Positions 33,058 to 38,359 of a DNA stretch of 64,000 nucleotides are shown one piece after another. The stretch is from Candidatus Helicobacter avicola (GTDB lineage Bacteria; Campylobacterota; Campylobacteria; Campylobacterales; Helicobacteraceae). The position numbers and the translations under genes are program-made. The stretch's first letter is position 1. Every line of letters begins with the position of its first letter. The DNA lies in the NCBI GenBank assembly GCA_019112865.1, contig DXIN01000030.1, positions 1 to 64,000 on the forward strand. The letters are read 5' to 3'. The notes under the pieces were generated by a model. The model made no database searches. It had not been told where the DNA came from and saw nothing but the letters and a program-made list of their open reading frames with translations.

Positions 33058-33151
33058 CTTTTTCCTTAATTCTTTATTTGAGTTCTTGTTTTAAAAAACC
33101 CTAATGCTTTGCGTGGTAGAATCCCTAAAGACTTTACACAAAAGGACACTC

Positions 33152-35371
33152 TTGAACACAGCAGAGCTTTTGATAGAAATACTAACCCAAGAACTCCCAG
33201 CAATTCCGTTTTTGCAAGAATTTCCACATATCGCCACTAAATGGCATCACTCTCTTAAAGCACATCACATACCGCCTTGTGATACACAAGTGTTTTTTAC
33301 GCCTAGACGCCTTGTGCTTTATGCCAAAAATTTCCCACTATACTCGCAAGATAGAGAGATTGAAGCCTACGGCGCACCCATTAGCATAGCGTATGAAAAT
33401 AGCGGTGCGCTTACTAAGGCGGGTTTGAGTTTTTTTGCTAAACACAATCTCGACCCTCAACTAGACCGAGATAAGGTAAGTAGTGCAATCAAAGACGGCA
33501 AGGAAGTGCTGTATTTTTCCCACACCCAAAAGGGTGTAGAGACTACTAGCCTACTCCCAGAGATTTTTAGTGAGTTTTTGCAGAGTTTGCATTTTGGCAA
33601 AAGTATGCGTTGGGGGAGTTTAAGCGAGGGATTTATCCGCCCTATTGAGAATATTTGCGCGTTTTTGGGTGGCTCTAGCCTACATCTTAGTGCATTTGGG
33701 GTAGATTCTAAGCCACAGACTTTTGGGCATAGGGATTTAGGATTTGCGCCTATTGATGTGGAGAGTGTGGAGGGGTATTTTGAGATTTTGCGCAAACACA
33801 AAGTTATCCTCAACCAACAAGAGCGTAAAGAGCATATTCTAAAGCAGATTCGCGAGATTGAGGATACGCACAATGTGGAAGTGGAACTCGATCCCGCATT
33901 GCTTGATGAAGTGGTGGCAATCACAGAGTATCCAAAAGCTTTGCTTGGGAGATTTGATGAGAAATTTTTGGAACTGCCAAAGGAAGTCATCATCACTTCT
34001 ATGAAAGAGCATCAGCGGTATTTTGCTATCCACAAACAAGGGCGGCTTTTTGATGGGTTTGTGGTCGTGAGTAATTCCACAAATAGCGATGCTTCACTCA
34101 TCATCTCGGGTAATCAAAAAGTGCTCAAAGCGCGGCTAAGTGATGCGATGTTTTTCTACCATAATGATTTAAAACGTGGATTACAGACACAGGGGCTAGA
34201 GAATATCCTCTTTGTGCAGGGGCTAGGGAGTTTGGCAGACAAGAGTGAGAGGGAGCTACAAATCGCGCAGATTCTGTATGCTAAATACGCACCCACGCAT
34301 AATTTTATGCCTAAGAATTTTTTGGAGCTACTCACACAAAGTGTGCGGTATGCTAAGGCAGATTTGCTCACGGAGATGGTGTATGAGTTTCCCGAACTAC
34401 AAGGGATTATGGGCGGGTATTATGCGCAGGCACTTGGTTATGATGAGTTGGTGGCGCGAGCTATCAGGGAGCAATATCTCCCAAATAGCGAGGAGAGTGC
34501 ATTGCCTTCTAATGCGCTAAGTGCGATTGTGAGTCTTGCAAATAAGCTTGATAGTATCTTTGGGCTTTTTAGTATCGCAAAAATCCCTACTGGCTCTAAA
34601 GATCCCTTTGCTCTGCGGCGTGCGGCTAATGGGGTGATAAAGATTATCCAAAATGAGGGCTTTACATTTAATCTGCGCGAGGATTTACGCGCACTCTATG
34701 AGGCATTGGGCTATGGTAAAGATTCACAGAGTGGGGATTCACGCCCCACGACAGAATCTAAAGCCTTAGATTCAGGCAGTGTATGCGCGCGCAGCGGAGC
34801 GAGTGGGGATTCACTCCTCACGAGCGATAACAATTTGCCACAGGCAAATTGCATAAAAAAAATAGAATCTTTTTTTCTTGAGCGGCTTGAAAATGCCCTG
34901 CCGGTAAATGCTTCGATTTTCCGCGCTGCGCTTTGTGGGTTAGATACACACAATCAGCCACAACGCGACATTAACACTCTCACCCAAAACGCCCTCGCAC
35001 TGCATGAGGTATTCCAAAGCACGCAGGATAAGCCAGCACTCCTTAGCACCTTTAAGCGTGTGGCAAATATTTGCAAAGACATCGACATTAATGCGTTAGA
35101 TTCTGTAGATTCTCTTGACACCTCACTTTTTGTCCATAAGGCAGAATCTAGTCTTTTTGAGAGTTTTATGAGGGTTAAAAATGGGGAGTTTGCCACGCAG
35201 TTAGATCGTGCAAGTGCGCTTTTTGCACTCAAATCTCCGCTTGAAATGTTTTTTGAAAATGTGCTTGTCAATGATAAAAATGAGCGGTTAAAACGCAACC
35301 GATATGCGCTTATTGGGAGCATTTATCGGGAGTTTTTGACTATCGGCGACATCGCCCAAATCGCTATCTAG
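33152..35371 (+). CDS. glyS: Glycyl-tRNA synthetase beta subunit with inserted element
   Basis: Charges tRNA-Gly together with GlyQ. The conserved N-terminus LNTAELLIEILTQELPA supports TTG 33152 as start, with AAAGGA 6 bases upstream; frames from 33104 add 16 unconserved residues. The protein is 739 residues, longer than the about 700 usual in relatives. Family motifs include GKSMRWG, EHQRYFA, KDPFALRRAANGVIKI and a C-terminal anticodon-binding DALR-like part. Residues about 524-572 (KDSQSGDS to NCIKKIE) look foreign and coincide with a palindromic element. Confidence 0.95.
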   Translation: MNTAELLIEILTQELPAIPFLQEFPHIATKWHHSLKAHHIPPCDTQVFFTPRRLVLYAKNFPLYSQDREIEAYGAPISIAYENSGALTKAGLSFFAKHNLDPQLDRDKVSSAIKDGKEVLYFSHTQKGVETTSLLPEIFSEFLQSLHFGKSMRWGSLSEGFIRPIENICAFLGGSSLHLSAFGVDSKPQTFGHRDLGFAPIDVESVEGYFEILRKHKVILNQQERKEHILKQIREIEDTHNVEVELDPALLDEVVAITEYPKALLGRFDEKFLELPKEVIITSMKEHQRYFAIHKQGRLFDGFVVVSNSTNSDASLIISGNQKVLKARLSDAMFFYHNDLKRGLQTQGLENILFVQGLGSLADKSERELQIAQILYAKYAPTHNFMPKNFLELLTQSVRYAKADLLTEMVYEFPELQGIMGGYYAQALGYDELVARAIREQYLPNSEESALPSNALSAIVSLANKLDSIFGLFSIAKIPTGSKDPFALRRAANGVIKIIQNEGFTFNLREDLRALYEALGYGKDSQSGDSRPTTESKALDSGSVCARSGASGDSLLTSDNNLPQANCIKKIESFFLERLENALPVNASIFRAALCGLDTHNQPQRDINTLTQNALALHEVFQSTQDKPALLSTFKRVANICKDIDINALDSVDSLDTSLFVHKAESSLFESFMRVKNGEFATQLDRASALFALKSPLEMFFENVLVNDKNERLKRNRYALIGSIYREFLTIGDIAQIAI
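34721..34868 (+). repeat. In-frame palindromic element, glyS copy
   Basis: Four hairpins in a row: GTGGGG/CCCCAC (34731-34749), GAATCTAA/TTAGATTC (34754-34773), GTGGGGA/TCCTCAC with one G-T pair (34803-34821) and CAATTTGCC/GGCAAATTG (34831-34851). The core GCGCAGCGGAG then GAGTGG and CACGAGCGATA recurs in the D-lactate dehydrogenase gene with altered but paired arms. Encodes ESKALDS and then RSGASGDSLLTSD. Confidence 0.8.
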
Positions 35372-35407
35372 CGCGCGGGAGAGCCACACACAACACAAGG
35401 AGCAAAG

Positions 35408-38359: not shown

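Follow-up and report, generated by a model that had tools for sequence, protein, structure and literature searches.

In this work, we present an analysis of short palindromic elements of Candidatus Helicobacter avicola (genome of 1.76 Mb in 42 contigs), two copies of which interrupt the glyS and dld-like genes in the stretch of DNA analysed here, a window of 64,000 nt. The elements are probably non-autonomous selfish palindromic repeats, which multiplied within one Helicobacter genus and act like the Rickettsia palindromic elements (RPEs). They are built of hairpin modules that reassort, the types of upstream, central and 3' module being nearly independent of one another (Cramer V 0.20-0.27, p 0.06-0.33).

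In our study, we used a loose search pattern derived from the two window copies, which gave 38 matches in this genome versus none for the reversed pattern serving as a control. A covariance model (CM) was built from these 38 pattern-matched copies and applied with a threshold of E <= 0.01; 150 of 863 candidates were scored, giving at least 114 places, three of them in the window. The genome search by CM proposed in the initial annotation thus returned a large number of further copies. Because of the 38 versus 0 matches, and because of the E values given below, the two noted inserts are confirmed as belonging to a large family of repeats and not a chance resemblance, and their annotated positions, module order and common reading frame were all borne out. 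Six congeners were compared, one genome per species: Ca. H. avicola itself, G004 and G005 (the latter we infer to be Helicobacter sp. MIT 00-7814) are rich in the element, and in G001, G002 and G003 no copy was found. The two copies, their parts and their host genes are as follows.

33104..35371, plus strand: glyS, gene of the glycine--tRNA ligase beta subunit, with copy 1 (PF02092 577 bits, TIGR00211 640.6 bits).
34781..34870, plus strand: element copy 1, in-frame insert of glyS (CM match 34768-34867, 106.6 bits, E 5.5e-26).
34789..34799, plus strand: conserved left junction/core of copy 1, GCGCAGCGGAG (columns mostly invariant or nearly so in 38 copies).
34803..34821, plus strand: central hairpin of copy 1, GTGGGGA-TTCAC-TCCTCAC (covariation analysis).
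34831..34851, plus strand: 3' hairpin of copy 1, CAATTTGCC-ACA-GGCAAATTG (stem analysis of parsed copies).
35408..38359, plus strand: dld-like FAD-linked oxidase/4Fe-4S gene, host of copy 2 (PF02913, PF01565).
37546..37634, plus strand: element copy 2, in-frame insert of the dld-like gene (CM match 37531-37634, 81.6 bits, E 4.2e-19).
37552-37562, plus strand: core of copy 2 (from the sequence).
37566..37584, plus strand: central hairpin of copy 2, GTGGCGA-TTTAC-TCGCCAC (covariation analysis).
37595..37617, plus strand: 3' hairpin of copy 2, CAATTTTCAC-AAA-GTGAAAATTG (stem analysis of parsed copies).

The core of the element, about 82-90 nt long, comprises GCGNAGCGGAG, CGAGCGATA and AATAAAATAATAGAA in this order, separated by two variable hairpins. 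The first of these, the central hairpin, has a stem of about 7 bp and a TTYAC loop or takes a longer form, as in CAATGGGGGC/GCTCCCATTG and GGGGTGAGAGGC, while the second (3') hairpin occurs in the types CAATTTGC, CAAGAGC, CAAGTTTGC and CAAGAAC. Copy 1 folds into two hairpins (-28.2 kcal/mol, z -3.2), and for copy 2 the values are -30.4 kcal/mol and z -4.3. Pairing is strongly conserved: despite widely differing arms, the seven central pairs are formed in 97.7% of the cells of the 38 copies, and in 44 cells of the central helix both sides are changed. The covariation score of this helix is 0.541, a value reached in none of 500 shuffles, and six slid structures score at most 0.172. As to the 3' hairpin, 81 of 114 copies could be parsed, and a stem of at least 7 bp is present in 85% of them versus 5% of shuffled tails. 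The partner-wise changes of the arms, noticed initially between the two window copies, are thus general across the family.

The cleanest insertion, located in a RecB-like helicase gene, consists of the core alone (about 82 nt by comparison with the element-free G001 and G002). Many other copies have extra upstream modules of two kinds, and units with upstream modules are repeated in tandem at about 144-179 nt; an extended unit measures 147 nt. A tandem array of G004 contains six units of 129 nt, 99% identical. This array (L233, G004:C1:1057300-1059700) adjoins the phoH orthologue and looks like a recent expansion, which might possibly be of use as a strain-typing marker. A single module was also noticed in glyS, 50 nt upstream of copy 1, as if it were a second, partial insertion in this gene:

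34729..34751, plus strand: lone central-hairpin module GAGTGGGGATTCACGCCCCACGA inside glyS (direct-repeat family D2, 91% identical to the copy 1 hairpin).

Inside open reading frames (ORFs) and in sense orientation we found 23 of 114 copies (at least 114 in total), a placement judged from the open-frame context with crude ORF calls, a few of them doubtful (e.g. L147). Twenty of these 23 are read in the RSGASGD frame and have the peptide RSG[AV]SGDxLxTSD in common. Copies are present in the coding regions of at least 15 genes, which, apart from glyS and dld, were named by family searches or by reading the sequence. The hosts include ribD, phoH-PIN and the genes of the RecB-like helicase, a family-2 glycosyltransferase and a UPF0029 protein, as well as proS, which has also a second partial element, a gene similar to 1-aminocyclopropane-1-carboxylate (ACC) deaminase with two tandem elements, a DegT-type aminotransferase gene with three tandem elements in its N-terminal part, and an aldehyde dehydrogenase gene with a degenerate copy. 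Two of the hosts, glyS and proS, are needed for making proteins.

The same genes of the relatives are free of the insert. At all seven genes tested (glyS, dld, proS, ribD, phoH, the ACC-deaminase-like gene and the RecB-like helicase gene) the orthologues of G001 and G002, about 70-84% identical, are without the segment, and that of GlyS is absent in nine relatives, including more distant ones; the comparison of GlyS and Dld with congeners, suggested in the initial annotation, thus revealed empty sites. GlyS and ProS, whose inserts would be translated with the segment RSGASGDSLSTSD, have one full-length match each in the genome. In the AlphaFold prediction of GlyS (12 sequences) residues 540-578, situated between two confident helices, have predicted local distance difference test (pLDDT) values of 22-34, and the insert is modelled as a disordered loop.

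In G004 and G005 the element represents a divergent subfamily without the 3' hairpin. Among 57 copies examined there, 23 are inside ORFs, all in sense; 17 of them are read as YEREAEPSGIHSRAGDT, in a frame other than that used in Ca. H. avicola, and six in the two remaining frames. Because conserved DNA is read in different frames across species, the unit, as judged from the sequences, is a nucleic-acid element, in which the DNA and not the peptide is conserved. The helicase loop occupied in Ca. H. avicola contains in the sister species their own subfamily, and a remnant of the element is present at the Dld linker of G004, so that both sites are occupied by different subfamilies in different species. 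A peptide shared by 20 of the 23 in-gene copies, with its hydrophilic composition, could also be expected if the insert were a real protein segment (a linker or binding peptide) selected by the host, with incidental palindromes in the DNA. We consider this explanation most improbable, as it is largely refuted by the use of other frames, mostly YEREAEPSGIHSRAGDT, on homologous DNA in the sister species; moreover, paired bases change together, the majority of copies are not translated in the RSGASGD frame, and the segment, modelled as disordered, is missing from the same enzymes of the relatives. A conserved protein domain was rejected for the same difference in frames.

The majority of copies lie between genes, in most cases on the 3' side of a gene that runs in the same direction, and about 20% are inside genes. 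The in-frame genic copies initially described hold, with the correction that they are a minority of the family. The RSGASGD frame is open in 22 of 26 genic copies versus 28 of 88 non-genic ones, and the in-gene copies are the minority that survived in frame. Among the non-genic clusters, 45 of 62 run in the direction of the upstream gene (p = 5e-4), often at convergent junctions. Such a location, together with the strongly conserved pairing, would suit RNA elements selected by the host, that is, stem-loops with a REP-like function in stabilising or punctuating transcripts, the in-gene copies being by-products. This is improbable in our opinion, considering that the close relatives G001-G003 do without any copy, that coding regions of so many genes are interrupted, that hairpin module types vary widely, and that the sister subfamily is devoid of the 3' hairpin. 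No Rfam family was plausibly matched in the window between 33000 and 38700, by which a known structured RNA was ruled out.

The genic insertions are strongly biased in orientation, with 43 in sense and at most three in antisense (p < 1e-9). The best antisense in-gene case is the third copy of the window:

41827..41926, minus strand: copy 3, degenerate, antisense (CM 48.2 bits, E 6.1e-10).

It is read in frame close to the C-terminal end of an ORF on the plus strand, whose sequence resembles an RluA-type pseudouridine synthase. An open frame is found in antisense no less frequently than in sense, and the antisense peptides are hydrophobic (mean grand average of hydropathy, GRAVY, of +0.2 to +0.3 versus -0.64), thus the in-gene sense bias may come from selection against hydrophobic antisense peptides. 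A different view, based on the orientation bias that is seen outside genes as well, is that the modular selfish palindromes form a mechanistically new class, in which hairpin cassettes move from copy to copy between fixed conserved junctions, with insertion tied to the strand that is transcribed (sense), e.g. by an RNA or single-stranded intermediate. We find this rather unlikely, yet somewhat less so than the RNA elements discussed above; if true, it would explain both why the sense orientation is favoured and why a known transposase is missing.

Assuming selfish repeats that behave like RPEs, a cellular or phage enzyme, or recombination, would copy the element, and the hairpins would be retained since the mobilising step needs them; copying and insertion are suggested by the empty sites and the copy number. 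An insertion into a gene would be viable only if the element contributes a sense frame that is open, encoding a hydrophilic, disordered loop that the host protein could tolerate at a surface linker, while copies landing past stop codons would persist free of the open-frame constraint. Several points weigh against such a scenario. Simple random insertion of DNA would not lead one to expect the strong sense bias, no target-site duplication could be fixed with the relatives compared, which are about 75% identical, and no mobilising enzyme was found among the transposase families searched. Also, the empty sites come from species with about 70-80% protein identity, so that, as far as such sequences tell, the segments may have been lost there.

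The search for a mobiliser showed that neither the Y1 transposase (PF01797), for which control genomes gave a signal, nor any TnpB-type family is present in the six congeners, and mobilisation of the REP/RAYT or IS200/IS605 kind was rejected for this reason. Reverse transcriptase was rejected as well, being present in only one congener, G005. Plasmids, phages and viral contigs were searched and contained no copies, hence carriage by any of them was also rejected.

Two further hairpins of the window, both with AGAATCTA, were included in the inserts by the initial annotation:

34753..34773, plus strand: AGAATCTA...TAGATTC hairpin beside copy 1 (genome-wide motif, outside the core element).
37516..37537, plus strand: AGAATCTA...TAGATTCT hairpin upstream of copy 2 (host sequence older than the insertion).

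We rejected them as part of the element, since they represent a genome-wide motif older than the dld insertion: the dld genes of G001 and G002, without the element, have CAATCTAAGATTAYAGAATCT, with the AGAATCT motif at the same place. In the window TAGATTCT occurs 59 times versus 2.5 expected, and AGATTCT/AGAATCT is the commonest 7-mer (139 sites on both strands, 13-fold over expectation), spaced at about 455 nt in coding and non-coding DNA (e.g. 34753, 35097, 35106, 37516, 59101). In each of the six congeners, whether or not it has the element, AGATTCT is in 8- to 26-fold excess, and it is over-represented also in a few other family members. Of the peptides annotated initially, ESK and LDS turned out to be the AGAATCT-type motif translated in frame. 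The motif resembles DNA-uptake, Chi-like or HIP1-like sequences.

AGATTCT flanks many copies, which brings into consideration a spread by recombination after natural transformation, with the AGAATCTA motifs and conserved junctions serving as homology, in place of transposition. The nearly independent reassortment of modules, the tandem arrays of identical units, the genus-wide abundance of AGATTCT and the failure of the tested families to provide a transposase candidate are all in line with it. However, AGAATCT is missing from both edges of the helicase copy, arrival at new sites is unexplained by homology alone, and congeners of equal AGATTCT density are without the element, thus we assign to this explanation a low probability, below that of host-selected RNA elements.

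The palindromes described here share several features with RPEs, which are about 150 bp long, form about ten families and have 44 copies in R. conorii, nearly half of them inside ORFs and in frame (PMC10969869). Both are short hairpin-forming palindromes (here a core of 82-90 nt and an extended unit of 147 nt) of several sequence families, with many interspersed copies (here at least 114), placed in frame in unrelated metabolic or essential genes (here 23 interior sense copies, with seven empty sites), and the likeness proposed in the initial annotation holds for behaviour (PMC10969869). The differences are the phylum, the swapping of hairpin and upstream modules, the tandem arrays, the location mostly outside genes and the frame varying by subfamily. 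The origin of the element is apparently independent of RPEs, homology being tested by the exact core pattern only: no Rickettsia record matched it in a scan of 84,980 species, and RPE sequences themselves were not aligned. To our knowledge, no mobiliser of RPEs has been described.

BOX elements of pneumococci and S. suis also consist of hairpin modules of variable order and number, exceed 100 copies, are often located at gene 3' ends with some coding overlap, and were inferred to be parasitic (PMC3049150). The modular composition, the copy number above 100 and the frequent 3'-end location are common to both; as compared by description, a relationship in sequence is neither seen nor to be expected, and BOX overlaps gene ends, whereas the Helicobacter element interrupts housekeeping enzymes in frame. 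Repetitive extragenic palindromes (REP/BIME) accompanied by RAYT (TnpA-REP, a Y1 transposase) are similar in being imperfect palindromes of high copy number with intergenic 3' location, but differ in their Y1 (HUH) transposase, missing from the six congeners, and in their extragenic location, our family having in-frame copies inside genes. Miniature inverted-repeat transposable elements (MITEs, such as ERIC, RU and QMITE) are likewise non-autonomous, short, interspersed and sometimes in frame; however, our element has no end-to-end inverted repeat, and no parental insertion sequence was found among the few transposase families searched.

Selfish palindromes that colonise housekeeping enzymes in frame are known mainly from Rickettsia, and no such family for Helicobacter was found in the open-licence literature to which our search was directed (subscription papers being outside it), in agreement with the initial annotation. 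The present family would be an apparently independent case in an unrelated bacterium, pointing to a recurrent route to new protein segments. With its two subfamilies and empty sites in congeners it offers comparative material, which may be easier to grow, and comparison of occupied and empty strains could test what moves such elements.

Among 121 family genomes scanned, six had matches at E <= 1e-4, three of them in the genus, with many copies (Ca. H. avicola, G004 and G005), and three others with one or two. The single copy found in another genus (L069, G046:C2:118984-119083) is very similar to the Ca. H. avicola type and lies in frame in a 353-aa ORF, where, judging from its sequence, it was probably brought by horizontal transfer with its gene. 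A weak match in G053 (L074) is flanked by GTCATTGCGAG-like sequence, presumably a widespread palindromic repeat of other bacteria, and possibly belongs to a different repeat family. The core-pattern scan gave 17 stretches; outside MIT 00-7814 it found five single matches in unrelated taxa, which look like chance, about five being expected by our estimate.

A few loci of particular arrangement were also noticed. At L126 (G000:C10:9561-19153) a surface-sugar-type gene cluster has six copies within less than 7 kb; through one of them a cytidylyltransferase-like and an aldolase-like ORF become one continuous frame, and others extend over stop and start codons of adjacent genes. In G004 and G005 the sister-subfamily copies L071, L082, L234 and L258 have AAAGGAATAG at their end, a short distance before a start codon; it looks as though the following gene received its ribosome-binding site from the element.
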